Shown here: in pieces, positions 47,386-64,000 of the stretch | Position numbering within the stretch: position 1 is the first letter of the stretch | Layout: each line of letters starts with the position of its first letter | Source: Lachnospiraceae bacterium | GTDB lineage: Bacteria; Bacillota; Clostridia; Lachnospirales; Lachnospiraceae | Direction: 5' to 3' | Assembly: GCA_017468395.1 (NCBI GenBank) | Contig: JAFUIR010000015.1 | Coordinates: forward strand, 62,001 to 126,000 | Length of the DNA stretch: 64,000 nucleotides | Translations under genes and position numbers: made by a program | The notes under the pieces: generated by a model | Databases searched by the model: none | What the model saw: the letters and a program-made list of their open reading frames with translations, nothing else | What the model was told of the DNA's origin: nothing

Positions 47386-47399
47386 AATATTCCTCTTCA

Positions 47400-48491: not shown

Positions 48492-48535
48492 CTGCTTTTC
48501 CCCATTTTGTGCTTACCGGTTTTTGAAACGGGACA

Positions 48536-49321
48536 CTATTTTGTCTCCAACAGCCATTGCACCGCCGGTTCCAAATAGGTGTTCCAAAACATAAAATCAT
48601 GAGCCCCCGGACTTTCCAAATAGATATGTTCCACTCGCTCTTCCGTCAAAAAGACATCAAAAGCACGGTTGGATGTCAACAAAAAGTCCTCCGTACCGCA
48701 GGCCATGTAAATTTCCGGCATAGGTCCTCCCTGTGCCTTTATGCGTCTTACCAGTTCCTCCGGGTTATTTTCATGATTTTCCAGTTTATCCAAATCTCCG
48801 AACATTAAGTGATAATACTCATAGTTTGCAATGGGATTGGACATTCCCGGCGTCATATTTTTCAGTTCATACATAATCAGCGCCGAAGATAATCCGAACG
48901 TTTTGGCAAATCTCTCCGGATATTTCAGTGCTGTATGAATGGCTCCGAACCCTCCCATGGAAAGTCCGCCCAGAAAATGGTCTTCCCGCTTTTGGGAAAC
49001 GCCAAAAGTCCGCTGCACATACAAGGGCAGTTCTTCGCCCACAAACGTACCGTACATTCTTCCCGTAGCCGCTCCGTCCAGATAAAAACTGTTTTCTCCT
49101 GAAGGAAGCACCACGCACAATTTGTACTTTCCTGCCAGTTCCATAATGTTGCTGTTCCATACCCATTCATAGTTCATATTGGAATATCCATGAAGCAGGT
49201 ATAAAGTTTTCAATTCTTTCTGGTTGACCGCTTCTCCCGGCATGTCATTGGGCAAAACCACTTTGAATGACACACATCTCTTTAAGCAATCGGAATAAAA
49301 TTCTACGTTAAAAAAAGCCAT
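48536..49321 (-). CDS. Alpha/beta-hydrolase esterase (esterase D/CE1-like)
   Basis: 261 residues, no signal peptide. Nucleophile Ser in GLSMGGFGAIH (about 120), acid Asp in CGTEDFLL, and His in SPGAHDFMFW (about 242) form the triad. LYLLHGYSNMNYEW is the oxyanion-hole region. The fold is that of esterase D and tributyrin-esterase-like CE1 proteins, which remove acetyl or feruloyl groups. Sitting 28 bp after the GH115 gene, it most likely deacylates xylan fragments in the cytoplasm. ATG 49321 has GGGGG upstream. Confidence 0.88.
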   Translation of the reverse strand: MAFFNVEFYSDCLKRCVSFKVVLPNDMPGEAVNQKELKTLYLLHGYSNMNYEWVWNSNIMELAGKYKLCVVLPSGENSFYLDGAATGRMYGTFVGEELPLYVQRTFGVSQKREDHFLGGLSMGGFGAIHTALKYPERFAKTFGLSSALIMYELKNMTPGMSNPIANYEYYHLMFGDLDKLENHENNPEELVRRIKAQGGPMPEIYMACGTEDFLLTSNRAFDVFLTEERVEHIYLESPGAHDFMFWNTYLEPAVQWLLETK

Positions 49322-49349
49322 AACCGTAACCCCCGTTCTCTATGTCTTT

Positions 49350-52220
49350 TTACACTCTGTAAGTTTCTTCCGGTCCAAGATAGGACTCTTTCAAAGCTGT
49401 TCCGCTCTTATAAATCCGTATTCTCTCAAGAACTACACCGGCATCCAGTGCTCCGATACTAAGTTCCTGCTCGCCGCTTTCAAAATTGACTGTAACGGTC
49501 AGTTTTCGTATCTGATCCAATACGCCCTGACACCATCTCCAGTCACTTGTATTTCCTGCCCTAAAGTCGGCCGGCACAAGCCGGGCATTTACCCACTCAC
49601 CCCTTCCGCCTTTCAGCATCAGGTTCATGCTTGTTCCCATGGATACCGGATTGGTTGGCGCAGTCAATACTTCCACCTGATAGTCTCCCGCCTCTTCAAT
49701 CATAAAACGGTAAGTCAAAACAGGCTTCTCTTCCTCTTTTTCAAAAGACACCGTAGTAGGCATTACTTTCACGCCCACGCCATAACTGCCGTATCCTTCC
49801 ATTACATTCCATGCGCCCTTTTGTACATCATCCTTTTGTACAAAATGTTCTGCGTTCATAACGATAACACCGTCTTTTGCAAGGAATGTGCCTTTGGAAA
49901 TGCCCTGTGTCTTTGTTTTTGCCGCCTCAATATCCACCGCCACGCAGGTTTCCTCTCCGCGAATCAAAAGGCGCATCTTCTGCACACCTTCCGGCAGTTT
50001 GTCTTTCAGGCAGGTCACTGTCACTTCCCGCAAAAGGGAAACTTCGCCCTGCATAGGCTCCACCTGTAACCACTCAGGCATCATGCCGTTTTCAGGACTG
50101 ATTTCATAGGTAAAACTTCCCACACCTCCGTTTGCGATTTCAAAAACCGCGCTCTCACAGTCCACTGACAGGAAATCTTTTATTTCGATAGCCATAGGTG
50201 CTCCATAGTTTTTCACTGCAATCCGGGCATCATCTTTTCTGGACACTGTCATGCGGGGCTTATGGGCAGGCTCCACTTTCATGATAATGGGATAGCGGTA
50301 TCCGTCCTCATTCCAGGTTACGAAACCGATATGCTGAGCCATCTGCATGCCTTTCCATTTACCGCCCTCGAAGGCTGCAAATTCCGCTGAAAGTTCCCGG
50401 TCTTTTTCAATGCACTGTGCCACCAAATCCCCGTAGTGGTTGGCAATGGGTCTTCCCTGCAGCGCATAATGTTTATTTTTCCCTGCATACAAATGCATCT
50501 TAAGTAAGTTCATGGATGCAGTAGCAGAAAAATGAATCATACTGTAATATGCTTTCTTTTCCCTGTCATTCAGGCTCTCGTAAATTTCTGCGGAAAGACT
50601 TTGGATTTCCTCGGCCTTGGCAAGCATACGGTCTGTTTCCCCGTAGTGACAGGCATGATAAATGCCCTCATGCAAAGCCTCGGGTCTTCGCATATGATTG
50701 GTGTTTATATATTCTGTCAGTACTTTCGCAATTTTCGCCTGATTTTCGCCGGCCTGCGGGAAAGTCTTCTCACTCCACATCCGGGCATATTCACGGTAAC
50801 TGTCGGGATTTCCGTATCCCCACTTGTCATAATCGTAGGCCAGTGCCATGAAATAGGTCAACGGCACTTCATGGAACTTCACATCCCCCACATTGACAAT
50901 CCATACATCACGGATACCGTACTCGTAAGCCATACTCATCTGTTCCCACATTTTGGAAAAAGGCGTGGAATCCACCCACTCATAGGAAATGGGACCGCCG
51001 TGGTAGTCGTAATGATAATACATACCAAAACCACCGTTACGCCCTCTCACTTCCTCCGTGGGAAGGGTTCGCAAATGACCAAAATTATCTTCACACAGCA
51101 TACAAGTCACACCCTCTAAACCGTCCCAATCTTTCAGTCCGGGTGTGTTTTCGTCGCCGTAATAATATTCTTCCACTTCTTTGTAAAGAGCCAAGAGTTG
51201 GGGCACTTTACTAAGGTCAGGATTTACATGTTTTGCAATCAGTTCCCTCTGCTTTGTAATAATCCTTTTCAGCAGTTCAATATTCTCTGCCACAGTAGAA
51301 TTTTCGCCCAGCATGGAAGTATCTCTCTCCCCACGCATACCGATGGTAATCATATTTTCATATTTACCGCTGCGAATCAGGGCATCTTCCCAGTAATTTA
51401 AAAGCCCCTCTTCATTGGTATAAAAGTTCCACTCGTTACCGTATTTGGTCTGGGGACCTCTTACTTTATCCCACTCCTCACTGGCACGAAGGCAGGGCTC
51501 ATGATGGGAATAACCCATTACCACGCCGTAAATGTCCGCCAGTTCCTCATTGGCACTGCCGGGTCCATCCAAAGGAAAAGATGCACTCCACATGGCAGGC
51601 CACAAATAATTTCCCTTCATACGGAGCAAGAACTCAAAGACATGCTCATAAGCCTTCGCATTAAAGTCACCGTAATGAGAGCACACCCAGTTACCAAAGC
51701 AGGGCCACTCATCATTAATAAAAAAACCTCTGTGTTTTACACTGGGCTCTTTGGACAGGGTTTCGATATCCGCTCCAATCACCAAGTCAGCGTTTTTTGC
51801 AGGTGCCACATCGCCCCAAAAGCAAAGTGCGGTCACACCTATATATTCAGACAGGGCAAACATACCGTAAATGGTACCTCTTTTATCACTGCCGCAAATC
51901 ACAAGAGTTTCATTTGCGTCTGGCACTGCCTCTTTCACAAAAGCAATTTTATATACCTCTCTTTTGCCCCGCACGCCCGATAAATCTATTTTTCCTTCTG
52001 CTTCCAGTTTCGAAAGCAACGGACTGTTGTCTACGGTAGCACAAAAAATTACTGCCCCTTTGCTGTTTTCCTCTATTTCTTCCACAATTTCGGGGCAGGT
52101 ATCTGTCACAAGACAAATATCTTTTGCCACTTTACCCGCAATGCGTTTTACCCCTTCAAAACTTTCTGCTTCTACCAGCATTTTAACATTTTGCTGTCCC
52201 AATCTGATTGCCTTCTCCAT
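49350..52220 (-). CDS. GH115 family xylan alpha-glucuronidase
   Basis: 956 residues from ATG 52220, one base after the preceding stop with GGAGG six bases upstream. No signal peptide. GH115 hallmarks: SVKHRGFFINDEWPCFGNWV (about 135-155), FEFLLRMKGNYLWPAMWSASFPLDGPGSANEELAD, VVMGYSHHEPCLRASEEW, and YYHYDYHGGPISYEWVDSTPFSKMWEQMS. A C-terminal GH115-type beta domain follows (about 780-950, ending VVLERIRIYK). Family members cleave (4-O-methyl)glucuronic acid from xylan side chains. Being intracellular, it acts on imported acidic xylo-oligosaccharides alongside GH8 and the two esterases. Confidence 0.95.
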   Translation of the reverse strand: MEKAIRLGQQNVKMLVEAESFEGVKRIAGKVAKDICLVTDTCPEIVEEIEENSKGAVIFCATVDNSPLLSKLEAEGKIDLSGVRGKREVYKIAFVKEAVPDANETLVICGSDKRGTIYGMFALSEYIGVTALCFWGDVAPAKNADLVIGADIETLSKEPSVKHRGFFINDEWPCFGNWVCSHYGDFNAKAYEHVFEFLLRMKGNYLWPAMWSASFPLDGPGSANEELADIYGVVMGYSHHEPCLRASEEWDKVRGPQTKYGNEWNFYTNEEGLLNYWEDALIRSGKYENMITIGMRGERDTSMLGENSTVAENIELLKRIITKQRELIAKHVNPDLSKVPQLLALYKEVEEYYYGDENTPGLKDWDGLEGVTCMLCEDNFGHLRTLPTEEVRGRNGGFGMYYHYDYHGGPISYEWVDSTPFSKMWEQMSMAYEYGIRDVWIVNVGDVKFHEVPLTYFMALAYDYDKWGYGNPDSYREYARMWSEKTFPQAGENQAKIAKVLTEYINTNHMRRPEALHEGIYHACHYGETDRMLAKAEEIQSLSAEIYESLNDREKKAYYSMIHFSATASMNLLKMHLYAGKNKHYALQGRPIANHYGDLVAQCIEKDRELSAEFAAFEGGKWKGMQMAQHIGFVTWNEDGYRYPIIMKVEPAHKPRMTVSRKDDARIAVKNYGAPMAIEIKDFLSVDCESAVFEIANGGVGSFTYEISPENGMMPEWLQVEPMQGEVSLLREVTVTCLKDKLPEGVQKMRLLIRGEETCVAVDIEAAKTKTQGISKGTFLAKDGVIVMNAEHFVQKDDVQKGAWNVMEGYGSYGVGVKVMPTTVSFEKEEEKPVLTYRFMIEEAGDYQVEVLTAPTNPVSMGTSMNLMLKGGRGEWVNARLVPADFRAGNTSDWRWCQGVLDQIRKLTVTVNFESGEQELSIGALDAGVVLERIRIYKSGTALKESYLGPEETYRV

Positions 52221-52221
52221 G

Positions 52222-53940
52222 TTAATCCTCCACATAACCAAATCCCAAAATAGTGAAATTTTTATCTTCATCACCGGGCTGCATTTTTACTTCCACATGG
52301 TAACTTTTCTTCTCTCTGCCCCTAAAACAGATAGCAGGATTACAATGCGTCCAGCCGTTGATTTTCGGGTTTGCAAACAATACCATTTCGCCGTCCACAA
52401 ACACCTGGGCACAGCCCACATTAGGCGATGCAGAGTCCTTGAAAATAAGGAGCAGAGCACTACAGGTAATGTCCATGGAAAAAGCTTTGCCTTCCCCTTT
52501 CTTTTCACTTCCTTTGTACATCCAGTTGTCCGGAAACTCCGGCGTAGGCACCAGATTTAAATCCTGTTCCACACATTGCAGTTCGCTGTCGCAATCCGTG
52601 AAATCTCCTACATCTATTACTGCATTGCAGTTATTCTGCGAAGCCGCAAGCAGTTTCACGTTTTGGAATTCTCCGCCGATAGGCGCAGGGATTTTTTCCA
52701 AAACAATATCTTCTTTATCCGCAGGCTGTGCATCCACCGTCTTCAGCAAATGAATCAGTCCGTCTGCCATAACCGTATGTCCCACATTGGTAGGATGGAA
52801 ACTGTCGTAGAAAAACTGTCCTTTACTCACAACCTTACCCTCTCCGGGCTTTTTGTAAAACTGTTCTACCACTGCATTTTTGGTGCTGATCATAGGCAGA
52901 TTGTATGCTTTTCCCACGGGAATCAGTCTGTCCTGCAAATTAAAGTCATCCGCAAATACCGCAAAAAGCAAAATAACCGCCGGCGCGTTTTGGGCGCTTA
53001 AAATTTTTCTTACCAGAGAGTCATAGCACTCGCCGTTTGTTTCATCTCCTGCGTCGTTTACCGCAAATTCCACCACCACAATATCAGGGGTAACGGTTCC
53101 GTTTCTGAGAACATCTCTCTCATAGCGGAGCATTCCAAGTTCCGAAGGGGTACCGCCCACCCCGGCTTTTATGTAATGAATATTTTCTTCCGTTCCTTTG
53201 CCCGCCAGTTCGCACAGCCCACGGAAGGTTTTATATGCATAGCACTGGGTATTAATAGGAATGGCTCCGGCGCCCTGGGTAATGGAACCGCCAATAAATG
53301 CGATGGTCACATCCTCCCCTGCCTTTGCCTTGTCAATTGCTTTTTTCAGGCGCACATTGTTACCCACCTGAATCAAAGATTGTTCCAACATCTCCTGATA
53401 ATAAGGCGAGGAAAAATCCGCCTTCTCTTCCTCTTCCGGCTCCGGTGCATCGAAACCGTCCTGCAAATAAAAGCGGACAGAGACGCTGGCAAATTCTCCC
53501 GCAGTTTTAAATTCAAAACGAATCTGACCGGGGATATCATCATCCTCGGACCAGTTACACTCATCCAGCACCAGAATATTTTCCATGCCGTCTGCACGCA
53601 GGGACTTTCTAAGATTTGTTCCCGAACCATAGATGTTTGTTTTTCCATACATCTGGAACACAAAATCCACCTGTTTCTCTCTATCATCCGCCTCCACGGT
53701 AATACCGATGCTATGTACCAACTTTCTAAAACCCTCTGTGGTTTTCAAAAGTTCCAACATATTTTCATCAGAGATGCCGCCCACAATTTTGGCGCTGCTA
53801 ATCATGCGTCCGTCATTCAGATAAATAAACTGGATACCGTTGCCGGCGGGCTGCACAGCGCCTGCCACCGCTTTATTTCGCATGATAAAGAAACTCTTTC
53901 TTTTCTTTGTGGGGTCCTTGGGTGCCTTAGGTCCTTGCAT
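52222..53940 (-). CDS. SGNH/GDSL carbohydrate esterase
   Basis: 572 residues, no signal peptide. An N-terminal beta-rich domain (about 20-185) is followed by an SGNH hydrolase with block I FIGGSITQGAG (Ser219), block II GVGGTPSELG, block III EFAVND and block V DSFHPTNVGH with the Asp-His pair. A C-terminal beta domain (about 425-572, with KSYHVEVKMQPGDEDKNF) may bind sugar. Context between GH8 and GH115 points to acetyl-xylan-oligosaccharide deacetylation. ATG 53940 has AGGAGG eight bases upstream, 12 bp after the GH8 stop. Confidence 0.9.
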   Translation of the reverse strand: MQGPKAPKDPTKKRKSFFIMRNKAVAGAVQPAGNGIQFIYLNDGRMISSAKIVGGISDENMLELLKTTEGFRKLVHSIGITVEADDREKQVDFVFQMYGKTNIYGSGTNLRKSLRADGMENILVLDECNWSEDDDIPGQIRFEFKTAGEFASVSVRFYLQDGFDAPEPEEEEKADFSSPYYQEMLEQSLIQVGNNVRLKKAIDKAKAGEDVTIAFIGGSITQGAGAIPINTQCYAYKTFRGLCELAGKGTEENIHYIKAGVGGTPSELGMLRYERDVLRNGTVTPDIVVVEFAVNDAGDETNGECYDSLVRKILSAQNAPAVILLFAVFADDFNLQDRLIPVGKAYNLPMISTKNAVVEQFYKKPGEGKVVSKGQFFYDSFHPTNVGHTVMADGLIHLLKTVDAQPADKEDIVLEKIPAPIGGEFQNVKLLAASQNNCNAVIDVGDFTDCDSELQCVEQDLNLVPTPEFPDNWMYKGSEKKGEGKAFSMDITCSALLLIFKDSASPNVGCAQVFVDGEMVLFANPKINGWTHCNPAICFRGREKKSYHVEVKMQPGDEDKNFTILGFGYVED

Positions 53941-53952
53941 GATGCTTTCCTC

Positions 53953-55098
53953 CTACCAAATACGATAATTTCCGCTGAGTGCCAAATATGCAAAAAAGTA
54001 CAAACAATTGTCGTAATATCTTCTTATACCGGTGCGCATGGGCAGTTTCCAGAAAGTCTCCACCCATTCACGGCAAAATTCACTCTTGGACGCCAAAGAT
54101 GCCTGTGCCACCGTAGCTGTAATGGCGATAGGATGAAGCACAAAATCCTTCACTGCAATACTTCCGTCCACCTCATATATGTAATATTGTCCTTTGCGGC
54201 AATCCTCTATCAAAAAGTCTTGTATTCTGTCTGTTGCCGCCCTTTGTCCTTCGTCTGTGCCAAACCACTCATAGTCCAAACCGATATTTGCCGCAGTTCT
54301 GTAAGAATCGCTGAAAAACCAGTCATGTCTGTCGGTGGTCCAAGAGAGACCTCTGCTCATGGGGCTACCGTCAAACTCCGCATATTCCGCAGAAAATCCG
54401 GTTACGGGATGGCAGGCTTTTTTCAAATACTCTCTGCTGACTTTTGCTGCGTTTTTCCAAAACTCTCTATCCTCTTCATCTGCCCACAACGCAAACAATT
54501 CATAAAAATGAGGCAAATGGTAAGAAGGATCCGTAAAATCAATGCCGGGAACAAAGAGAATCTGACCATTTTCCAAATTCCACATAGAAACGCCTTCCCT
54601 GCCGTCTTGTCCTTTATGTAAGCAGGCTCTCAAAATCTCTTTTGCCTGTTCTTCGTAGTTGAAAATCCCTTCACCGTTTCCCCATCTGTGTGCCGCAAAG
54701 AAAAGTGCCATTGCAAAAAACTCTTCGCCATCAGATGCGGGGCCCTTATCATTTTTGCTGCCGTCTGTAGCACAGGACCATGCAAAATAACCTTCATGCC
54801 AGCCCTCTGTATTAAACATATAAGTCTTCGCCCACTTCCAAAGACGGTCGAATTCCTCTTTCATATCAAGCTGCACACAAATCATCATACCGTAAGACAT
54901 ACCTTCGGTTCTGGCATCATTATTACCGGTATCCATAATGTAAGCCATATCATCCCCCACCGGATAATAGACCTTCTCATCTTCTTTGCCATAGAAATAC
55001 ATATCTCTGATTTCCCAAAGGCGTTTTTCCACTTCCTCCTTGGGAATTCCCATCTCCGCAAACAAATTTCTGTATTCCTTCTTTAGCACTTGACTCAT
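53953..55098 (-). CDS. GH8 reducing-end xylose-releasing exo-oligoxylanase
   Basis: 381 residues from ATG 55098 (GGAGGG seven bases upstream); a further in-frame ATG at 55131 lacks a site. The (alpha/alpha)6 GH8 domain has the acid Glu65 in DARTEGMSYGMM and base-region Asp123 in GPASDGEEFFAMAL, at positions matching the Rex enzymes of Bacillus (offset of five), plus the Asp of SWTTDRHDWFFSD. No signal peptide. Rex enzymes take xylose from the reducing end of oligosaccharides, a cytoplasmic job. First gene of the xylan part, behind the promoter at 55146-55175. Confidence 0.95.
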   Translation of the reverse strand: MSQVLKKEYRNLFAEMGIPKEEVEKRLWEIRDMYFYGKEDEKVYYPVGDDMAYIMDTGNNDARTEGMSYGMMICVQLDMKEEFDRLWKWAKTYMFNTEGWHEGYFAWSCATDGSKNDKGPASDGEEFFAMALFFAAHRWGNGEGIFNYEEQAKEILRACLHKGQDGREGVSMWNLENGQILFVPGIDFTDPSYHLPHFYELFALWADEEDREFWKNAAKVSREYLKKACHPVTGFSAEYAEFDGSPMSRGLSWTTDRHDWFFSDSYRTAANIGLDYEWFGTDEGQRAATDRIQDFLIEDCRKGQYYIYEVDGSIAVKDFVLHPIAITATVAQASLASKSEFCREWVETFWKLPMRTGIRRYYDNCLYFFAYLALSGNYRIW

Positions 55099-55145
55099 TT
55101 TATTGCCCTCCAAAAATGTATATCCATCCATTTTTTATACTCCTA

Positions 55146-55718: not shown

Positions 55719-57125
55719 TTACTCTTTACCGTCCCAGCAATAAGTACAAAGTTTTGAGCGGTCAATACCGACGGCTTCAATCATATCATCCAATCTGTGA
55801 TAACGCAGAGTAGTGAAATTCAGCTTCTTACAGATACGGTCAATCATATCCTTGTACTCTGCTGTATCCGGGTCGCAATAAGCCTCCAAGTTGGTGTACT
55901 TTCCTTCTCTTTCAATTTCCTTTAAAGTTCTTCTGGTAATCAAATCCATTTCCGAAGAGGAACGGGAGAAATTCAAGTATTTACATCCAAACATCAGGGG
56001 CGGACAAGCCGGACGGATATGCACCTCTTTTGCACCGCTTTGATATAAAAATTCCGTAGTTTCCCCAAGCTGTGTTCCCCGGACAATGGAGTCGTCAATC
56101 AAAAGCAGGCTCTTATCCTGAATCAAATCATGCACCGGAATCAGTTTCATCTTTGCAATCAGATTTCTCTGGGTCTGAATGGTGGGCATGAAAGATCTGG
56201 GCCAAGTAGGTGTGTATTTAATAAAAGGTCTGGAAAAAGGAATTCCCGAACGGTTTGCGTAACCGATAGCATGGGGAGTACCGGAATCCGGCACACCCGC
56301 TACAATATCCGGTTTTACATCATCCCTGTCTGCCAGCAGTGCACCACAGTTATATCTCATCTGCTCGACACTGATACCTTCGTAGGATGAGGACGGATAT
56401 CCGTAATAAACCCATAAAAACGTGCATATTTTCATATCTTTACCGGGAGCTGCCAATGTATGGGCACCTTCCGGTGTAATAATGGCAATTTCTCCGGGAC
56501 CCAATTCTCGCACTGGAGTATAGCCCAGATTCAAATATGCAAAACTTTCAAAAGCCGCACAACAAGCACCCTCTTTTTTGCCAATGGCAACAGGGGTTCG
56601 TCCCATTTTATCTCTGGCAGCATAAATACCCTTTTCCGTCATAAGGAGCATAGTCATGGAGCCTTCTATCATTTCCTGGGCATACCGGATACCCTCCACC
56701 AGATGCTCTCTTTGGTTAATCAGGGACGCCACCAGTTCTGTTGCATTAATATCGCCGCCACTCATTTCCAAAAAGTGGGAATGTCCTTTCTGGAACAGCA
56801 TTTTAACAAGGGCATCCATGTTATTAATTTTTCCCACCGTTGCAATGGCATAATTACCGTGGTGTGAACGGACAATCAACGGCTGGGGCTCATAGTCGGA
56901 AATACATCCGATACCCAGATTACCCTGCATGGTGTTAATGTCTTTATCAAATTTTGTACGAAAAGGGGAGTTCTCGATGTTATGGATTGCGCGGTCATAT
57001 CCCTTTTCTTTGCTGTAAACTGCCATTCCGGCACGTCTCGTTCCCAGATGGGAATGATAGTCTGTTCCGAAAAACAGGTCAAATACACAGTCCTCTTTTG
57101 ATGCAACTCCAAAAAATCCGCCCAT
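55719..57125 (-). CDS. PurF-like amidophosphoribosyltransferase homologue lacking the glutaminase Cys
   Basis: 468 residues. It aligns along its length with PurF: an N-terminal Ntn-hydrolase domain and a C-terminal phosphoribosyltransferase domain with an intact PRPP loop (LLLIDDSIVRGTQ, about 350). However, residue 2 is Gly where PurF has the catalytic Cys (MGGFFGV), the GHxRYST-type loop reads GIGCISDYEPQP, and the oxyanion Asn-Gly is replaced (ATVGKINN). Cysteines in KICTF, FGCKY and LCTYC match the spacing of the [4Fe-4S] ligands of Bacillus-type PurF. It should not use glutamine; ammonia-dependent synthesis of phosphoribosylamine or a regulatory role is possible. No other purine gene is nearby. 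Confidence 0.88.
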   Translation of the reverse strand: MGGFFGVASKEDCVFDLFFGTDYHSHLGTRRAGMAVYSKEKGYDRAIHNIENSPFRTKFDKDINTMQGNLGIGCISDYEPQPLIVRSHHGNYAIATVGKINNMDALVKMLFQKGHSHFLEMSGGDINATELVASLINQREHLVEGIRYAQEMIEGSMTMLLMTEKGIYAARDKMGRTPVAIGKKEGACCAAFESFAYLNLGYTPVRELGPGEIAIITPEGAHTLAAPGKDMKICTFLWVYYGYPSSSYEGISVEQMRYNCGALLADRDDVKPDIVAGVPDSGTPHAIGYANRSGIPFSRPFIKYTPTWPRSFMPTIQTQRNLIAKMKLIPVHDLIQDKSLLLIDDSIVRGTQLGETTEFLYQSGAKEVHIRPACPPLMFGCKYLNFSRSSSEMDLITRRTLKEIEREGKYTNLEAYCDPDTAEYKDMIDRICKKLNFTTLRYHRLDDMIEAVGIDRSKLCTYCWDGKE

Positions 57126-57199: not shown

Positions 57200-57757
57200 C
57201 TACTCCAACACAGTACTCATATACTCAATGGAAACAATTTCGTCATTTTCCAAAATAAAGCACAGTTTCATACCGTCTTTTTCATACACAAGCAGACCGT
57301 TTTCCTCTTTGTAATTTTCGCCGTAAGCAGCAATCATATCTGCTTTTGTTTCAAACAAACTTACTCCTTCGGGTGTTTCCACCATATCGTCTTTCAAAAT
57401 AATGCTTGAAACTCTGTCAGCGCCTTCAGCATCGGGATAAGTGTCGATTTCCACACTGTTGTATGTGTACATCTTGTCCAAACCTTCAAATGCACAACTT
57501 GCCGCCTCAAAGTAACTTACAGGCTCGCCCAAAGTCTCAACAATAGGTGCTGCAAGGGCATCCGCACTGATACTTACGCCCTGATACACAAATACATAAC
57601 CTTTTGCAGCCTCTTCCTTAGAAGCGTCTCCTGCGCCTGCAGATTCTCCTGCCACATTAGACTCTTCTCCGTTTACCGGTGTCTGCTCACCGCCTCCGCA
57701 AGCTGCAAAAGCAGCAGCCAGAGCAGCGCTCATCAACAATACTTTCCATTTTTTCAT
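57200..57757 (-). CDS. Small lipoprotein at the end of the Dlt-like cassette
   Basis: 185 residues from ATG 57757 (AAGGAG seven bases upstream). Signal peptide with lipobox (MKKWKVLLMSAALAAAFAACGG), a Glu/Ala/Gly linker, then a compact domain (about 65-185). It contains GVSISADALAAPIVETLGEP, two Cys-flanked aromatic segments, SSIILKDDMVETPEGVSLFETKADMIAAYG and LCFILENDEIVSIEY. The ILxD..VxTxEGVxLF.TKADMIAAYGE part resembles small secreted inhibitor-like/SmpA-like folds, but I cannot name a family with confidence. It follows the SGNH-like gene by 38 bp and probably works with the cassette at the cell surface. Confidence 0.82.
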   Translation of the reverse strand: MKKWKVLLMSAALAAAFAACGGGEQTPVNGEESNVAGESAGAGDASKEEAAKGYVFVYQGVSISADALAAPIVETLGEPVSYFEAASCAFEGLDKMYTYNSVEIDTYPDAEGADRVSSIILKDDMVETPEGVSLFETKADMIAAYGENYKEENGLLVYEKDGMKLCFILENDEIVSIEYMSTVLE

Positions 57758-57795
57758 AATAAAACTCCTTCCTTTCCTGCAAGTTGCAGGCACTT

Positions 57796-58848
57796 TTATT
57801 CTACTCCATATAAGACTTTTTGTCTCTCTATTTCTGCATAATATTCTGCCAGTTTTTCTTCCCAAATTTTGGACAGATGTTCCTCACTTCTGCGGTCTTC
57901 CAAGCCACACTCGTCAATCAAATATTGACCAAGGTAGTCAGTTATCTTAATTGCCCCCCACAAATTCAGGTGCAGACCCGCATCATAGGTGTCGGTGTTA
58001 AAGTCCAGACCGCACTCTTCCTGCAATTCCAAAAAATTAATATATTTCAAATCATTTTCGGCAGCATACTCTTCCATCTGTACCTCCCACTGGTCATACC
58101 AATGCGGGTAAAGACTGGGGGCTTTTACCAAAATCAGTTCAATATCATTTTCCTTACAAAGATTGGTAATCATATCCATATATTTGTACGCATTGTCGCC
58201 GAATTGGTAATTTGCCAGCCTTTTGGGCTCCGGGATATTGGTAGCCGGCTTACTATCCACACGCATATAATATCCGTTATAGGATACCTTGGGGCGGGAA
58301 AACATATACTGCACGTCCTCCCGTTTCAGCTGCGTAATCCGGGAATGATAACGCAAAATAGGGAACACATAATCCAAAAAGTTCTCATCCTCCATCATGG
58401 AAGACTGTATCGCACCCACTTTGGACATGGACCATTCCATTCCCTCAATAGACATACGGTTGTACGCCTCTCTTTGGGGTTCATTATACTGCAATGCCAA
58501 AACATTGAAAATCACTACATCCGGCTTTTCATAGCGCAGGGCATCTTCCAAAAGATAATAAGACTGCCAAATAAGTTGCTGCGCGCTGCCACGGATATAA
58601 CTGTTGATACCGTACTCTTCCCACAAAACCGCAGGGACAAAGTTTTCATACACTTCACAGTCTCCGATAAAAAGTACATCGTGATCCTTCTCTTCCTGAT
58701 AGTATTCCGCAATCAGGTTGCCTTCCACCACTTCACTGGCATACTTGGGTACCAGAAGGCACTGTAAAAGCCACAAAGTCACCCACACAAAGGTTACTAT
58801 CAAAGCCGCCGCTACCGTTTTCTTTTTATTCCATTTCTTTTTTTCCAT
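57796..58848 (-). CDS. DltD/AlgX-like SGNH-fold membrane protein with Cys at the nucleophile position
   Basis: 350 residues. One N-terminal anchor (TVAAALIVTFVWVTLWLLQCLLV, about 11-33), the rest outside the cell. The first SGNH block reads VLFIGDCEVYEN, with Cys64 (codon at 58657-58659) where Ser stands in GDS/GSS enzymes. RGSAQQLIWQSYYLLEDAL is block II-like, and the final DAGLHLNLWGAIKITDYL supplies the Asp/His. It lies directly after the MBOAT gene, as DltD follows DltB-type proteins, and should take part in transfer of the acyl or aminoacyl group to an envelope polymer. Basic residues near the anchor set an outside-facing topology. Confidence 0.85.
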   Translation of the reverse strand: MEKKKWNKKKTVAAALIVTFVWVTLWLLQCLLVPKYASEVVEGNLIAEYYQEEKDHDVLFIGDCEVYENFVPAVLWEEYGINSYIRGSAQQLIWQSYYLLEDALRYEKPDVVIFNVLALQYNEPQREAYNRMSIEGMEWSMSKVGAIQSSMMEDENFLDYVFPILRYHSRITQLKREDVQYMFSRPKVSYNGYYMRVDSKPATNIPEPKRLANYQFGDNAYKYMDMITNLCKENDIELILVKAPSLYPHWYDQWEVQMEEYAAENDLKYINFLELQEECGLDFNTDTYDAGLHLNLWGAIKITDYLGQYLIDECGLEDRRSEEHLSKIWEEKLAEYYAEIERQKVLYGVE

Positions 58849-58867
58849 CGTTTATACAAACTCCATT

Positions 58868-60463
58868 TTAAAACTGGTTATAAATAAACTGACTCGCATC
58901 ATATCCTACGCCGTAAGCGCCAAAAAGAAGCACCGCCAAAAACAGGACATACCAGATAACCGCACGCACCGCCAAAGGTTTTGCGGAAATTTTGTCTCTT
59001 ACTTTGCCCCTTCTTTGCACCAGACTGACCGTAAGCAGCACAAGGAAACCGACAAATAAAATTACATAATCTTTTACATCCAATCCAAGTCCCAGCAATC
59101 CTCCGCCCAGCACTTCTCCCCAGTTCCATGTAGTAAACATACTTCCGAACATCTTAAAAGTAAGGGGCACATCCCTGTAACAGTCAAACATACGAAGGGT
59201 GCTCATAAGCAAAATGGTTCTTACCACCTGAAAAGCCCTGAAAGCCCATTTATCCTTCACGGCCGGAAAAGCCGCGTGGAATTTGCGGTACAAAGGCTCC
59301 AATTCCTGGGAAATCATAATTACCACAAAGTTCCCCAGTCCCCAGGCAATAAAGTTCCAACTGGCACCGTGCCAGATACCTGTAGTAAACCAAACTACAA
59401 AAGAGGACAGATACACCGGCACGCGCTTGCCCAGGGCATCACCCAAATGGCTTCTTGACCACTTGGAAATGTTAAGCATGGGCTGACACACGGAAATAGG
59501 ATAGAAAATGTAATCCGTAAACCATGTACCCATGGTAATATGCCATCTGTTCCAATATTCTTTGATATTTTTCGAAAAATAAGGTCTGCGGAAGTTTTCC
59601 GTCACCTTGATTCCCAGCACCTCTGCAATACCGATGGTAATATCAATACCGCCCGTAAAGTCCGCATAAAGTTCCAACGCATAGAACAGCATACCCACAA
59701 AAACATAGGCCCCCTGATATGTATCGCCGTTTTGGATAATCTCTTTTACCGCAATAAGCATACGGTCTGCAATGACCATCTTTTTAAAATAGCCCCAGAG
59801 AATCCTCTGCAGTCCGTAAGATACCGTCTTTGTATCAAACTTGTGCTGTGCAAAAAGGCTCTGTGCCAAATCGTCAAAACGGCTGATGGGTCCCTGCACT
59901 AATTGAGGGAAGAATGATACAAACAGCGCAAACTTAAAGGGATTTGTCTCCGCCTCATATTTGCCGCGGTATACGTCAATCACATATCCCAAGGTCTGGA
60001 AAGTATAAAAAGAAATACCAAGGGGCAGCACCAAATCTACAAATTCCAAAGCCCCCTCGCTTCCGAAAGCTTTCATCACGGAATTGACATTGGAAATGGC
60101 AAAGTTAGTATATTTCAGCACCGCCAAAATTCCAAGGTTAAACAGCAAAGTAAGAAGCAGCCATCTCCACTGCTTCTTCTTTTCTTTTGCCTTATATTCT
60201 TTTCTTTCCTCACGGCTCATTTCGGCCTTATGTACAGCCAGATACTGTTCCTGACCGGCCTTAAGGCTGCGAAGTTTCATGCCCACCAGATAGGCTGAAA
60301 CGGTAGTTACCAGTATAAACGGCAGAAATTCCACCCCTGCAATAGCGTAAAAAACATAGTTCGCCACCAAGAGAACGCACCACTGCATTTTCTTGGGCAG
60401 GACATAATAGAGCACTGCCGTTACCAGTACAAAAATCATAAATTCATAAGAAGTAAAAAGCAT
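58868..60463 (-). CDS. MBOAT-family O-acyltransferase (DltB/AlgI-like)
   Basis: 531 residues with about 11-12 membrane helices. MBOAT hallmarks: LPLGISFYTFQTLGYVIDVYRGK (about 145-167), FFPQLVQGPISRFDDL, FRRPYFSKNIKEYWNRWHITMGTWFTDYIF (about 290-320) and the catalytic His in TGIWHGASWNFIAWG (about 358). In Dlt and alginate systems this protein moves an acyl group from a cytoplasmic donor, here probably the carrier protein encoded just upstream, across the membrane to an extracellular acceptor. The gene follows the carrier gene by 31 bp and precedes the SGNH-like gene by 19 bp. Confidence 0.93.
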   Translation of the reverse strand: MLFTSYEFMIFVLVTAVLYYVLPKKMQWCVLLVANYVFYAIAGVEFLPFILVTTVSAYLVGMKLRSLKAGQEQYLAVHKAEMSREERKEYKAKEKKKQWRWLLLTLLFNLGILAVLKYTNFAISNVNSVMKAFGSEGALEFVDLVLPLGISFYTFQTLGYVIDVYRGKYEAETNPFKFALFVSFFPQLVQGPISRFDDLAQSLFAQHKFDTKTVSYGLQRILWGYFKKMVIADRMLIAVKEIIQNGDTYQGAYVFVGMLFYALELYADFTGGIDITIGIAEVLGIKVTENFRRPYFSKNIKEYWNRWHITMGTWFTDYIFYPISVCQPMLNISKWSRSHLGDALGKRVPVYLSSFVVWFTTGIWHGASWNFIAWGLGNFVVIMISQELEPLYRKFHAAFPAVKDKWAFRAFQVVRTILLMSTLRMFDCYRDVPLTFKMFGSMFTTWNWGEVLGGGLLGLGLDVKDYVILFVGFLVLLTVSLVQRRGKVRDKISAKPLAVRAVIWYVLFLAVLLFGAYGVGYDASQFIYNQF

Positions 60464-60494
60464 TGTATTACACCTTTATCTTTTATTTGAGGAA

Positions 60495-60737
60495 TTATTC
60501 GTCCAAAAGTTCCTCAATCAACTCAGCAAGTGCTGCTGCGGAGTTAAAATACTGAGGGTCGATTTTGTCAGCAGGAACAGTTACATCCCACTCATTATTA
60601 ATCTCTGAAATCAAAGATACAATGTCAAAGGAATCCAAAATTTTATCATCAATCAAAGTGTCGCAGGTTTCAAAATCCACGTCAGGATGCAAATCTGTCA
60701 AAATTTCCACTAAAGTTTCCATAATATTTTCGTACAT
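60495..60737 (-). CDS. Acyl/aminoacyl carrier protein (DltC-like)
   Basis: 80 residues, acidic, helical. Phosphopantetheine attachment site at Ser36 in KILDSFDIVSLISEIN. Length and motif fit DltC-type carriers, which hold the aminoacyl thioester made by the adenylation enzyme and present it to the MBOAT protein. GAGGAG precedes ATG 60737. It lies between the adenylation enzyme and the MBOAT genes, i.e. order A-C-B-D rather than the canonical dlt A-B-C-D. Confidence 0.93.
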   Translation of the reverse strand: MYENIMETLVEILTDLHPDVDFETCDTLIDDKILDSFDIVSLISEINNEWDVTVPADKIDPQYFNSAAALAELIEELLDE

Positions 60738-60816
60738 TGTTTTATCTCCTCTTCTTTTCTTTATTTACAGCCCTCCGTTTTCCTTCGGGCACAATAAACT
60801 ATTTTCCCGCCGTTTT

Positions 60817-62334
60817 CTAGGCTTTTTCTTCCTGATATAACTGTTTCAGATACACTCTGTTAATCTTTCCGTTGGGAGTTAAAGGCATCTCGTCCAGTTT
60901 CTTTACATAGTTGGGAATCATGTATCTGGGAAGTTTGTCCTTCAAAGCCTTGGTAAGGGCTCCGCTCTCAATATCTCCCACATAATAAAGTACTATTTTT
61001 CCCTTTACGTTGTCATATATACATCCCGACAGGCGGATTTGTGGCATCATATTCACATTTACTTCGATTTCTCCCAGTTCAATGCGGTGTCCCATGTGCT
61101 TAATCTGATAATCTTTCCGGGACACAAAAACCAGTTCTCCGTACTCATTGTACTTTCCGATATCGCCGGTGCGGTAAATCAGTTCGGGATAGGCAGTATT
61201 CAAGGGATTCTGCACAAAGGCCTCTGCGGTCTTTTCAGGGTTATTGTAATAGCCCATGGTCAGGGATGTTCCGCGGATACAAATTTCTCCCGGTTCTCCC
61301 GCAGCCGCTCTTTCATCCTTTTCGTTTAACAGAATAATCTCCGTATTTTTGAACGGCCGTCCCACCGGAATGACTTCATCCAGTGCAAATTCTCTGTTTA
61401 CTTTATAATAACAGCACATGCCCGTACCTTCCGTAGGTCCGTACAGGTTTGTAAATTTCGCATTAGGAAGCACGCTCTTCCACAAATTGAACTGCTTGAT
61501 GGGAAATACTTCACTGCCAAATGCAATGGTGTGCAGATATTCCGGTTTTACCTTGTCAAAAGCACCAAAAGCAGAAATCATGGTAAGGGCAGATACCACC
61601 CAGCAAACCGTGTTAATCTTATGCTCATTCAAAAATTCCACCAGTTTAATAGGGAACATAAACAAACTCTTGGGCACCAGATAAGTGGTGGCACCGAATT
61701 TCAGCGTAGGATACAGTTCTTTCAGGCAGGCATCAAAGTAAAGAGGTGTCTGGTTACCAAAGACCGTATCTTCATTAAATTCCAATACTTCGGAAAGTTG
61801 CTCGATATAATCCAGCACAGAGCGGTGACATGCCACCACGCCCTTGGGCACCCCGGTGGAACCGGAAGTAAACACCACATAAATGGGGTCTGTGTCGATT
61901 GCCTTATCGTGAATATCCTGCAATTTTTCCACATCAATTTCCGTCTTAATCATCTCATCATAGAGATAAATTTCGCCGTTAAAATGAAAAGTCTCTGCAA
62001 TTTCTTTTGTCTTTTCGTCGCAAATAATGGCTCTGGGTTTCAGATTATCCAAAATCAAATCAATTCTGACTCTGGGCATTTCCTCGTCAATGGGCACATA
62101 AAAATCTCCCGCTGCAATGACACCAAAGAACGCAACAATAGTCTTAGGGTGCTTGTTCATAAACACCACTACCGGCTCTTTATAAATTCCTTTCCCGGCA
62201 AGAAATGTTGCAATAGCTTTATGCTGATTTTCTACATCTTTGAATGTCAGGGCTTCTGTCTCATTGGCAAACGCCGTTTTGTCAGGCACTCTTTTTACTG
62301 TGTCTATTAAATAATCAAGTACATGATTTTGCAT
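60817..62334 (-). CDS. Amino-acid adenylation enzyme (DltA-like) loading the carrier protein
   Basis: 505 residues, standard for stand-alone adenylation enzymes. Core motifs: VFTSGSTGVPKGV (about 154-166), NQTPLYFDACLKELYP (about 194-209), NLYGPTEGTG (about 296), YRTGDIGKYNEYGELVFVSRKDYQIKHMGHRIELGEIE (about 387-424) and the catalytic Lys in TPNGKINR. Asp201 in FDA should bind the amino group of the substrate amino acid, so an amino acid rather than a fatty acid is activated. The pocket differs from DltA: Lys205 at the position that contacts the side chain, and AFGSEVFP where DltA has a conserved Cys-Gly-Glu. Automatic annotation would call it D-alanine ligase; the true substrate is open. Confidence 0.9.
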   Translation of the reverse strand: MQNHVLDYLIDTVKRVPDKTAFANETEALTFKDVENQHKAIATFLAGKGIYKEPVVVFMNKHPKTIVAFFGVIAAGDFYVPIDEEMPRVRIDLILDNLKPRAIICDEKTKEIAETFHFNGEIYLYDEMIKTEIDVEKLQDIHDKAIDTDPIYVVFTSGSTGVPKGVVACHRSVLDYIEQLSEVLEFNEDTVFGNQTPLYFDACLKELYPTLKFGATTYLVPKSLFMFPIKLVEFLNEHKINTVCWVVSALTMISAFGAFDKVKPEYLHTIAFGSEVFPIKQFNLWKSVLPNAKFTNLYGPTEGTGMCCYYKVNREFALDEVIPVGRPFKNTEIILLNEKDERAAAGEPGEICIRGTSLTMGYYNNPEKTAEAFVQNPLNTAYPELIYRTGDIGKYNEYGELVFVSRKDYQIKHMGHRIELGEIEVNVNMMPQIRLSGCIYDNVKGKIVLYYVGDIESGALTKALKDKLPRYMIPNYVKKLDEMPLTPNGKINRVYLKQLYQEEKA

Positions 62335-62372
62335 TTCTTGTTGCCTTTCTTCTATCTTTGATAAATACTTTT

Positions 62373-63080
62373 TTACAAATTATCGTATTTTGCTCTCAGC
62401 CTGCCGCACTGCTTTACGGCAGTTCTGGCCAAAACCTCCATAGCATCCAAATAATAGGGCTGTAATTCATAATCTCTTTTCACCATGGAAAGTTCCGTAC
62501 AACCTAAAATAATCACCTCGGCACCTTTTTCCAAAAGTTCTCTTTCCACCTCGCCAAAGGCCTGCATGTCCACTTTGCAACCGGCTTTTACATTATCATA
62601 AATAATGCCCATTACCTTCTTTTGGCTTTCCTTGGAAGGCAGAATAACCTCTATCCCGGCCTCTTCCAGTTCCTTTTGGAAGACCCCTACCTGCACGGTT
62701 CCGTCCGTAGCCTCCAGCGCTGCTTTGCTTATCCCTTTTTCCTTTAAATAGAGTGCCACTTCTTTGATAGCGTGGATAATGGGAATTCCCACATCACCTT
62801 GGATTTCCTCATGCATGGCATGAGCGGTAATACAGGGAATAGCCGCAATTTCAGCACCGTCTGCCGCCAGTTTACATCCGCACTGCGCAATCTGCGGTGC
62901 CGGATTTTCTGCTGACAGACCCAGTAAATATTTTGTTCTGTCCGGTATCTGCGGACAGTTGTATATAATCATCGGAATGTGTTCCTGATCCGTTGCCGCA
63001 TCTGTCATTTCAATAACAAGTTGCATAAAATAGGCCGTTGCCATAGGACCAAGACCGCCGATTATTCCCAGCGTTTTCAT
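62373..63080 (-). CDS. Aspartate/glutamate racemase-family enzyme
   Basis: 235 residues from ATG 63080 (GAAAGAG eight bases upstream); GTG 63089 is an alternative. The two catalytic cysteines are present in AAIPCITAH (about 80) and IILGCTELSM (about 195), with the GGLGPMAT N-terminal loop typical of Asp/Glu/hydantoin racemases. It is cytoplasmic and cofactor-free. First gene of the Dlt-like run, 38 bp before the adenylation gene and behind a good promoter, so it probably supplies a D-amino acid to that enzyme. It is too short and divergent to be called MurI, and no wall-synthesis genes are adjacent. Confidence 0.9.
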   Translation of the reverse strand: MKTLGIIGGLGPMATAYFMQLVIEMTDAATDQEHIPMIIYNCPQIPDRTKYLLGLSAENPAPQIAQCGCKLAADGAEIAAIPCITAHAMHEEIQGDVGIPIIHAIKEVALYLKEKGISKAALEATDGTVQVGVFQKELEEAGIEVILPSKESQKKVMGIIYDNVKAGCKVDMQAFGEVERELLEKGAEVIILGCTELSMVKRDYELQPYYLDAMEVLARTAVKQCGRLRAKYDNL

Positions 63081-63124
63081 CTTTTTCACTCTTTCAATTT
63101 GCCTTCTGCAAAAATGCCTTTACA

Positions 63125-63153
63125 ATATTAGCACACTTTTTTCTACATTACAA
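63125..63153 (-). promoter_or_regulatory. Promoter of the racemase/Dlt-like cassette
   Basis: Minus strand: -35 TTGTAA (63153-63148), 17-bp spacer, -10 TAATAT (63130-63125), 45 bp before ATG 63080. No other promoter-like element stood out between here and 57200. Confidence 0.65.
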
Positions 63154-63176: not shown

Positions 63177-64000
63177 CTAGTTAATTTCCGGATACAGGCT
63201 CTTATCGTAAATGTGGGTGTTCTTATGGCTCTCGGAATATTCCCGAAGTTGTTCATCCGTCCACATAAAGAACACTGTTTTATCTTTTCTGGGTGTGGCA
63301 TCAAAATGATACCAGCCGTCCCCGATATCCACCAAGTTCCAATAATGGGAAGGATTTACCGTAGACTTCACAATGTCCATGTTCGTAATTCCCGCTCTGG
63401 TAAGAAGCACCTTGGCAGTACATGCATAAACAAAGCAGTCTCCCTGCCTCTTTACCAGACCTTCATAGGCGCCTCGTACCCAGTCGCCCTTCTCCGAATG
63501 GCTGATATAACCGATTTTGCTGTGCACCCAATTATAAATCGCCTTGGTCTTTTCATAGAGTGTCATATTATCTTTCAAGATAGATGCCAGCACTTCATCT
63601 GCCTTTTCGTTTACCACATTTTCATCATAGTAAACAGGCTTTTCCGCCATTACAAAAACCTTGCCGGTTTTGCTGGTAAAATTACCTGCTGTGTCCGTCA
63701 CGGTGTAAACCACCTCATAGGTTCCCACCGTATTGGGGTCTACTTTTGAATTATCAATATCCAGTTTCAATTCTGCCTTGGTATCCGCATTGTCGGAGTA
63801 ACCTACCGCTTTCTTGTAGGACACTGCCTCACCGATAATAATATCAATGGTACTTAGAGAAACTTCCGGTGCCACTTTATCCTCTTTCAACTTAAAGGAC
63901 ACCGTCTGGCTGGAAGTGTTTCCCGCTGCGTCCGTAGCCACGATTTCAGCACTGCCGCTTCCCGCCGTATTCCAGTCCGGCTCCTGCACATAACTGTAAG
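63177..64000 (-). CDS. Secreted transglutaminase-like protein with Ig-like repeats (partial, runs off right edge)
   Basis: The frame is open to the window edge; 273 residues are seen and the N-terminus is missing. At least two bacterial Ig-like/HYR-type repeats (VATDAAGNTSSQTVSF; AELKLDIDNSKVDPNTVGTYEVVYTVTDTAGN) precede a transglutaminase-like cysteine-protease domain. It has Cys in KRQGDCFVYACTAKVLL, His in NPSHYWNLVDI and Asp in WYHFDATPR, preceded by AIYNWVHSKIGY. Such proteins are cell-surface proteases or crosslinking enzymes. Internal GTG at 63989 is a Val codon, not a start. It ends about 25 bp before the racemase promoter and has no U-run terminator that I can see. Confidence 0.88.
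   Translation of the reverse strand, partial: YSYVQEPDWNTAGSGSAEIVATDAAGNTSSQTVSFKLKEDKVAPEVSLSTIDIIIGEAVSYKKAVGYSDNADTKAELKLDIDNSKVDPNTVGTYEVVYTVTDTAGNFTSKTGKVFVMAEKPVYYDENVVNEKADEVLASILKDNMTLYEKTKAIYNWVHSKIGYISHSEKGDWVRGAYEGLVKRQGDCFVYACTAKVLLTRAGITNMDIVKSTVNPSHYWNLVDIGDGWYHFDATPRKDKTVFFMWTDEQLREYSESHKNTHIYDKSLYPEIN

Follow-up and report, generated by a model that had tools for sequence, protein, structure and literature searches.

A racemase-linked, Dlt-like gene cassette of Clostridia that may modify the cell envelope with a D-amino acid, most likely D-aspartate

The DNA analyzed here, a stretch of 64,000 nucleotides from a Lachnospiraceae bacterium (the window; G000:C11:62001-126000, in a genome of 2.6 Mb that is 92.7% complete), carries on its minus strand, at 57200-63089, genes for a racemase, a stand-alone adenylation enzyme (A), a carrier protein, an MBOAT acyltransferase, an SGNH-like protein, and a lipoprotein, in this order of transcription (Table 1). 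On the basis of comparisons with related loci and genomes, we judge with moderate confidence that this cassette is a dedicated system for modification of the cell envelope with a D-amino acid, most likely D-aspartate (D-Asp), and it is best read as a hybrid of Dlt-like and PatAB-like systems. We take it for a real and widespread variant of carrier-based envelope aminoacylation that has a racemase of its own and probably serves D-Asp. An earlier note on this DNA had proposed a noncanonical Dlt-like system that makes its D-amino acid on site; the conservation of the racemase and the distinctness of A from DltA support this proposal, which withstands, on the comparative side, the refutation that the note had set for it, and a minority of clusters without the racemase (7/21 at class level) limits it.

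Conservation of the cassette and its racemase

A scan of GTDB contigs with a 17-row A alignment confirmed at least 593 loci, the best 80 of which, a selection thus biased to close relatives, were used for comparison. By title, they come from Lachnospiraceae, Oscillospiraceae, and further Clostridia, including cultured Cuneatibacter and Pseudobutyrivibrio, the latter with P. ruminis and P. xylanivorans, as well as from single metagenome-assembled genomes titled Anaerolineaceae, Gastranaerophilales, and Bacilli, which may be misbinned. Anywhere in these 80 loci, the carrier is found in 79, the MBOAT protein in 78, the transglutaminase-like protein in 75, the SGNH-like protein in 71, the racemase (>150 bits) in 69, and the lipoprotein in 55; it is missing from 25, of which 13 are titled Pseudobutyrivibrio and several are short contigs. 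When at least 6 kb is present on both sides of A (48 loci), the carrier, MBOAT, and SGNH-like proteins are all found in 48, the transglutaminase-like protein in 47, the racemase in 44, and the lipoprotein in 39. The racemase gene immediately precedes A in 61 of the 77 loci having at least 900 bp upstream, and the order transglutaminase, racemase, A, carrier, MBOAT, SGNH, lipoprotein is the commonest (34/80), the rest being shuffled or cut by contig ends with the set kept together. Because the gene set stays together in other genera, the cassette is real beyond chance. Judged by these loci, the transglutaminase-like gene belongs to it, making seven genes, and this gene usually precedes the racemase, which the earlier note had taken for the first gene of the unit. 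Neighbor families present in at least 6 of 81 loci are AsnB (13 loci), an ABC transporter family (12 loci), and smaller lineage-specific families; one further family consists of minus-strand frames in 23 loci, taken for antisense frames.

The survey of racemase conservation beside the cassette that the earlier note had called for shows that the racemase is kept with the cassette in most genomes and loci. At the family level (200 genomes from 199 genera), 24 genomes, including that of the window, have a member of the A clade (at least 55% identity), and a racemase scoring above 200 bits occurs in 21 of them and in 0/176 of the others (Fisher p 1.5e-25, which ignores kinship), with the 200-bit line having been set after the scores were seen; the best genome outside the clade, G062, reaches 188.5 bits, and the other nonclade genomes score below it. 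In G013 and G135, both among the 21, the racemase lies 6-7 kb off in the same cluster, and in G087 the set of transglutaminase, racemase, MBOAT, SGNH, and lipoprotein genes is on a different contig from the A gene. At the class level (245 genomes, of which 21 have the A clade; a few genomes, including that of the window, are shared by the two surveys), 13 clusters contain the racemase, and so does G299, on a contig that ends inside an A fragment, giving 14/21; the scores in G326 and G394 are below 200 bits. Among the 224 class genomes that lack the A clade, two score above 200 bits, G363 and G367, and both racemases lie beside an ATP-grasp ligase gene. The survey includes one other genome from the genus of the window's genome, G022; it has no A or racemase match at the thresholds used, and the cassette is patchy within one genus.

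As controls, 26 related A domains from other Dlt-like clades of Lachnospiraceae (L033-35, L037-39, and L120-139) were compared. In the stretch covered, their loci have a carrier in 25/26, an MBOAT protein in 19/26, and an SGNH match in 11/26, and a racemase in 0/26, with flanks of ~1.5 kb for six and mostly ~6 kb for twenty. These A clades have pocket codes of their own: DVKI..CNK, SMLYVFLDIK (Ser at 235), and DNLF.FLDVK. Their cassettes probably perform other, uncharacterized envelope acylations, and one perhaps acylates with a non-amino acid. At L129, in genome G178, the cassette transglutaminase, carrier, MBOAT, SGNH, and lipoprotein genes are all present, the A gene belongs to a different clade, lies on the opposite strand, and has Ser235, and no racemase matched in that genome at 1e-20. 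This one case resembles a natural exchange of one acyl group for another, accompanied by loss of the racemase.

The adenylation enzyme

The adenylation enzyme scores above the amino acid adenylation profile TIGR01733 (322.9 bits; cut-off, 317.4) and far below the cut-off of the DltA profile TIGR01734 (274.5 bits; cut-off, 559.85). A tree built from 68 adenylation domains, 66 of them different, unites the 40 cassette rows in one clade with support of 100/100, and five DltA-type rows stand apart from it together with three nonribosomal peptide synthetase (NRPS) rows, in a region where long branches meet. Nine class-level loci (L141-L149; 501-565 bits, two over the DltA cut-off) served as the DltA-type reference; their pockets begin DL[MSA][VI], or DVIV in one case, with no lysine at 239, and no racemase was found within ~1.5 kb on either side of them. 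The pocket code was read at positions 235-236-239-278-299-301-322-330-331-517, which we take to be the GrsA pocket numbering, and was placed by hand alignment, not by structure; the code of A differs from those of the nine DltA-type enzymes at 236, 239, 278, 299, 322, 330, and 331. In the same register, the NRPS rows L155 and L150 read DLTKVLHIGK and DAKDFIVVDK, which resemble what we assume to be the known Asp and Glu codes, and this supports the register. Score, tree, and pocket, all of them comparative measures, set A apart from DltA. With A as the query, the window's genome yielded no second relative, so no canonical DltA was seen.

The pocket starts with DAKC in 105/105 clade rows (99 distinct), and the class-level rows (n = 19, the window's genome not among them) comprise 18 with DAKC and 1 with DARC. 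Asp235 would suit a free alpha-amino group, and Lys or Arg at 239, which is Lys205 in the window's enzyme, would suit an acidic side chain. Cys278 tracks the racemase, being present in 0/26 of the racemase-free A rows. Lys239 alone was considered as proof of an acidic substrate and rejected, as 15/26 racemase-free A domains, those of the DVK and DAKD types, share it; it is consistent with such a substrate.

The racemase and pointers to D-aspartate

The racemase belongs to the Asp/Glu racemase family by profile (TIGR00035, 219.5 bits; cut-off, 93.1), and its nearest solved structure is the aspartate racemase of Pyrococcus (PDB 1jfl, 8.5e-55). The catalytic residues Cys86 and Cys197 are present in 86/86 racemase rows (83 distinct), as is R51, and K168 is present in 85/86 (one X). 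R51 and K168 align with R48 and K164 of PhAspR, which are presumably the ligands of the side-chain carboxylate. In a tree of 61 racemases whose bootstrap had not settled, 44 cassette rows group with support of 90/79, with one ligase-linked row (L223) inside the group.

Racemases outside the cassette bear on the identity of the amino acid. Of the 16 such racemases that are closely related, 14 have an ATP-grasp ligase gene within ~1.5 kb, the exceptions being L183 and L186. According to a review, Lactococcus lactis has racD in the aslA operon, AslA is an ATP-grasp D-Asp ligase, and AsnH amidates D-Asp (PMC4155827). The racemase-linked ligases appear AslA-like by context, with weak NCBIfam matches. 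In G363, an ATP-grasp ligase gene, a cassette-type racemase gene (L223, of the Ile87 type), and an asparagine synthase gene stand in a row (L244:8407-12258), which is likely a D-Asp cross-bridge cluster in a clostridial genome. Three lactobacillus proteins, of which two are annotated as carboxylate-amine ligase, share 37-44% identity with this ligase. Their genes follow aspS and an amino acid racemase gene in L. curvatus, asnB in L. crispatus, and neither in L. fermentum; the first two settings resemble the aslA-racD operon of L. lactis. One racemase type is therefore found beside both machines, the ligase and the cassette, and it is this that points most directly to D-Asp.

Two further pointers are gene families that accompany some cassettes. 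An asparagine synthase (AsnB) family gene is on the cassette strand in 13/80 loci, with its place assigned for 10, and those of L099, L195, and L196 pass TIGR01536. A D-aminoacyl-tRNA deacylase gene follows the SGNH gene in 8/80 loci, all titled Pseudobutyrivibrio, one of which was profile-tested. Each of these associations may be a single lineage event. AsnB was rejected as proof of D-Asn, given its presence in 13 loci, its absence from the window, and the 31% identity of the cassette AsnB compared to the ligase-linked AsnB.

Carrier, MBOAT protein, and acyl shuttle

The carrier has weak matches to AsbD (32.7 bits) and to DltC (TIGR01688, 23.5 bits; cut-off, 52.35), both below cut-off, and its Ser36 is kept in 97/98 rows. 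The MBOAT protein passes PF03062 (47.3 bits; cut-off, 27), stays below the DltB profile TIGR04091 (147.8 bits; cut-off, 375), and has His365 in 93/94 rows, with a gap in the remaining one. A C-terminal FXYXXF motif is present in 74/74 complete MBOATs above 600 bits, one of which is that of the A-swapped L129, and in 16/20 complete MBOATs below 600 bits: a cassette MBOAT with a low score, six that are the second MBOAT of a cassette locus, and 9/13 from control cassettes. MBOATs beside DltA-type genes, with frames of 389-407 codons, have the motif in 0/9 cases. As described in PMC12148441, the tyrosine shuttle of the Dlt system is the FXYXXF motif of DltX, and MBOATs that use acyl-CoA and have no carrier bear this motif at the C terminus. 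No cassette gap is longer than 87 nt to hold a DltX microprotein, overlapping small frames and copies elsewhere not having been sought. Taken from these motifs, the cassette appears to join a carrier donor with an MBOAT-borne shuttle, as several sister cassettes also appear to do.

SGNH-like protein, lipoprotein, and transglutaminase-like protein

In the SGNH-like protein, Cys64 (GDC) and His293 are present in 72/72 rows and Asp289 in 71/72 rows. The 10 other control-cassette SGNH proteins all have Ser in the Cys64 column, and the His is common to both groups. The SGNH protein of L129 keeps the Cys although its A gene differs, so the Cys marks the SGNH clade and not the amino acid. The SGNH fold assignment is suggested by weak Lipase_GDSL_2 matches in 42/47 relatives (best, 1.3e-5) and by alignments; the window protein alone has no Pfam or DltD match, comparing the SGNH alignment by profile to the GDSL protein of the window gave no match, and neither the SGNH nor the lipoprotein profile matched a PDB entry at better than E 0.02.

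The lipoprotein alone has no family match, and Pfam scans of its family gave weak, scattered matches. Its lipobox Cys20 is conserved, and a 51-row alignment has invariant S87, C88, A89, T106, T128, and E130. In L091:13320-15017, L239:11923-13473, and L241:11514-13124, the SGNH-like protein and the lipoprotein share one open frame, which suggests joint action. The transglutaminase-like protein matches PF01841 (40.1 bits; cut-off, 23) and has Ig-like domains and one membrane segment by eye. The transglutaminase-like proteins examined bear Ig-like or cell-wall-binding repeats, those of L129 being of the choline-binding type, and the next gene in L239 and L241 encodes L,D-transpeptidase and D,D-carboxypeptidase domains. 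The L129 repeats and these neighboring domains fit a location at the wall.

Proposed pathway and alternative readings

In the pathway proposed, the racemase would convert L-Asp to D-Asp, and A would activate the alpha-carboxylate of D-Asp with ATP and load it as a thioester on the carrier. The MBOAT protein would then move the aminoacyl group through the membrane to the tyrosine of its own C-terminal FIYNQF, from which Cys64 of the SGNH-like protein would take it to an extracytoplasmic acceptor, such as a wall polymer, teichoic acid, or a peptide, with the transglutaminase-like protein and the lipoprotein assisting this last step. The enzyme activities, the identity of D-Asp, the direction of transfer, and the acceptor are all what we infer from sequence. 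The genome has a 677-amino-acid (aa) sulfatase-domain open reading frame (ORF), LtaS-like by eye, and one partial match to the CDP-glycerol-transferase family, which makes lipoteichoic acid a possible acceptor. A conserved polymer gene was sought as an acceptor clue among the neighbor families of the 81 loci, and none was found. A bolder and, in our estimate, rather doubtful extension of the D-Asp pathway is that the cassette is a third way of D-Asp into the envelope, in which D-Asp would be made on site, held on a thioester carrier, and transferred outside the membrane by a Cys-nucleophile SGNH protein, possibly as an amide. Since a thioester would favor an amine as the acceptor, the bond formed could be an amide, to peptidoglycan or a different polymer with amino groups, and not an ester. 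In this extension, the transglutaminase could act on the same material, and Lachnospiraceae would have several such adenylate-carrier-MBOAT-SGNH systems in parallel, the cassette among them, each with a pocket code of its own.

A number of observations weigh against the D-Asp pathway or against a strict need for the racemase in it, and the lack of a conserved polymer gene, the 200-bit line drawn after the fact, and the hand-placed pocket code given above are among them. The main one against a strict need for the racemase is the existence of A-clade genomes without it. At the family level, the three misses are G134, which has a 142.6-bit racemase adjoining A, G002, which has a 36% identical one elsewhere, and G065, which has none; at the class level, the clusters of G355, G309, G282, G296, G338, G303, and G213 are without it. 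Of nine A-clade genomes without the cassette racemase, six carry a different TIGR00035 gene, which is interrupted in G282, and the other three have none at 1e-10. The substrate evidence also has its counterweights: Lys239 occurs in racemase-free A domains, as described above, R51 and K168 are present in all nine non-cassette racemases and so mark the wider family, the function transfer in the ligase argument spans 32-49% identity, and AsnB, which the window and most loci lack, is distant from the ligase-linked AsnB where compared.

The same machine might instead carry another acidic D-amino acid, such as D-Glu, D-cysteate, or another, a reading that we consider unlikely. The racemase passes the cut-off of the cysteate racemase profile NF052483 (CuyB; 200.5 bits against 190), Lys239 would suit any acidic side chain, and the residue after the first catalytic Cys, which is Asn in the solved relatives aligned, is Ile, Val, or Met in 81/86 cassette rows and Asn in 5. 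Among 30 racemases of the family survey, this site reads C[IVF]T in the 21 of cassette genomes and CNT in the 9 others. In RacX, docking pointed to four key residues, among them the Asn at the matching position (PMC12838360), so its replacement here makes a changed substrate possible. Against these points stand the cassette-type racemase of L223, which lies beside an AslA-like ligase and AsnB in G363, and the ligase linkage of 14/16 near racemase relatives. An extra enzyme for D-Glu would be needless with the second PF01177 racemase of the genome, by inference MurI, and for cysteate, the genes of which were not sought by name, the loci show no additional gene family that is conserved next to the cassette.

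Other readings concern the product or the whole machine. That the cassette yields an aminoacylated lipid, or a small metabolite for export, instead of a modified envelope polymer seems improbable; it would explain why no conserved polymer gene lies beside the cassette and leaves room for a lipoprotein and a transglutaminase without a known role, but the MBOAT-SGNH pairs with FXYXXF in PMC12148441 are described for polymer acylation, and the transglutaminase-like proteins bear Ig-like or cell-wall-binding repeats. An ordinary Dlt system, with A activating D-Ala that goes to teichoic acid and with the racemase as a passenger, either unrelated or auxiliary, is in our view very improbable. It would have the same list of parts (A, carrier, MBOAT, and SGNH), and the sub-cut-off matches to DltA, DltB, and DltC and the LtaS-like ORF agree with it, but the three proteins stay below the Dlt cut-offs, A forms its own fully supported clade with a pocket unlike those of the nine DltA-type enzymes at seven positions, the shuttle is borne by the MBOAT protein and gaps of at most 87 nt are left for DltX, and Cys replaces Ser in the SGNH-like protein. 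On these profiles, tree, and pocket and on the racemase linkage across genomes, we rejected a canonical Dlt operon carrying a passenger racemase.

Gene layout and surroundings in the window

The six genes and their order given in the earlier note are confirmed on the minus strand, with gaps of 38, 79, 31, 19, and 38 nt in transcription order. The transglutaminase-like gene ends 87 nt upstream of the racemase gene, the largest gap in the cassette. The single promoter that the earlier note placed before the unit is not established: the candidate element in this gap has 8/12 matches, under the threshold of a promoter scan that found 33 sites in the window against 19.9 expected by shuffling and did not list it. 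A promoter of the racemase's own is possible but unsupported.

Table 1. The cassette and its candidate promoter, with positions in the window
Feature	Position	Strand	Details
Transglutaminase-like protein, 3' part	63177..64000	-	Full gene 675 aa, past the window edge; L140:6178-8205
Possible promoter TTGTAA-17-TAATAT, TG before -10	63125..63153	-	Read from sequence; weak
Asp/Glu-family racemase, 238 aa	62373..63089	-	GTG start; other possible ATG at 63080
Stand-alone amino-acid adenylation enzyme, 505 aa	60817..62334	-	Pocket code DAKCIFLGMK
Aminoacyl/acyl carrier protein, 80 aa	60495..60737	-	DSF phosphopantetheine site Ser36
MBOAT acyltransferase, 531 aa	58868..60463	-	C-terminal FIYNQF acyl-shuttle motif
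SGNH-like membrane-anchored putative transferase, 350 aa	57796..58848	-	Cys64 at nucleophile place (GDCE), Asp289/His293
Small lipoprotein, 185 aa	57200..57757	-	Lipobox Cys20; conserved Cys88 region

Downstream of the cassette, a PurF/GATase_7-like protein is encoded at 55719-57125 (minus strand; 189.8 bits against a purF cut-off of 350), and it starts with MGGFFG, without the N-terminal Cys that we take to be expected of class II glutaminases. Its gene was rejected as a cassette member, since among the 80 loci it is found only in the nearest relative, L040. The block at 40855-55131 (minus strand), with GH115, GH8, GDSL, and esterase enzymes and HlyD, FtsX-type, and ABC genes, looks like one for hemicellulose use and export. 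Upstream of the window, L140:8180-15116 contains DUF5717, DUF5716, and two unnamed genes and overlaps into the start of the transglutaminase gene. The window has no match in Rfam.

Relation to known systems and implications

The cassette resembles DltXABCD in having an adenylation enzyme, a carrier, an MBOAT protein, and an SGNH-type transferase and, as predicted, in passing an aminoacyl thioester across the membrane. It differs in that its A, carrier, and MBOAT proteins score below the Dlt cut-offs, that it has no DltD match, and that it has its own racemase, as well as in a shuttle placed on the MBOAT protein instead of DltX, a Cys as the putative nucleophile, and the added lipoprotein and transglutaminase. 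With PatA-PatB and related MBOAT-SGNH O-acetyltransferases, it shares an MBOAT protein with its own C-terminal FXYXXF and a separate SGNH protein; according to PMC12148441, the other MBOAT/SGNH pathways have no similar carrier. The donor of the cassette would be an aminoacyl carrier protein and not acyl-CoA, and Cys stands in place of Ser. As in AslA/Aslfm-RacD(-AsnH), an aspartate-racemase-family gene adjoins that of an enzyme predicted to use the racemase product; unlike that system, the window cassette has no ATP-grasp ligase gene among the neighbors of its racemase, and it would use an adenylation-thioester route with transfer outside the membrane, whereas AslA uses a beta-aspartyl phosphate and cytoplasmic addition. 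Among the matches listed in searches of one open-access library, which does not extend to subscription papers and preprints, none described a racemase-linked Dlt-like cassette.

If the D-Asp reading is correct, many gut and rumen Clostridia would put an acidic D-amino acid on their surface by an undescribed pathway, which would alter expectations for surface charge, for resistance to cationic peptides and muramidase, and for the immune recognition of commensals. The cassette would also uncouple two pairings that were thought to be fixed, that of a carrier donor with DltX and that of an acyl-CoA donor with an MBOAT-borne shuttle, and its Cys-SGNH transferase would be a new mechanistic case.

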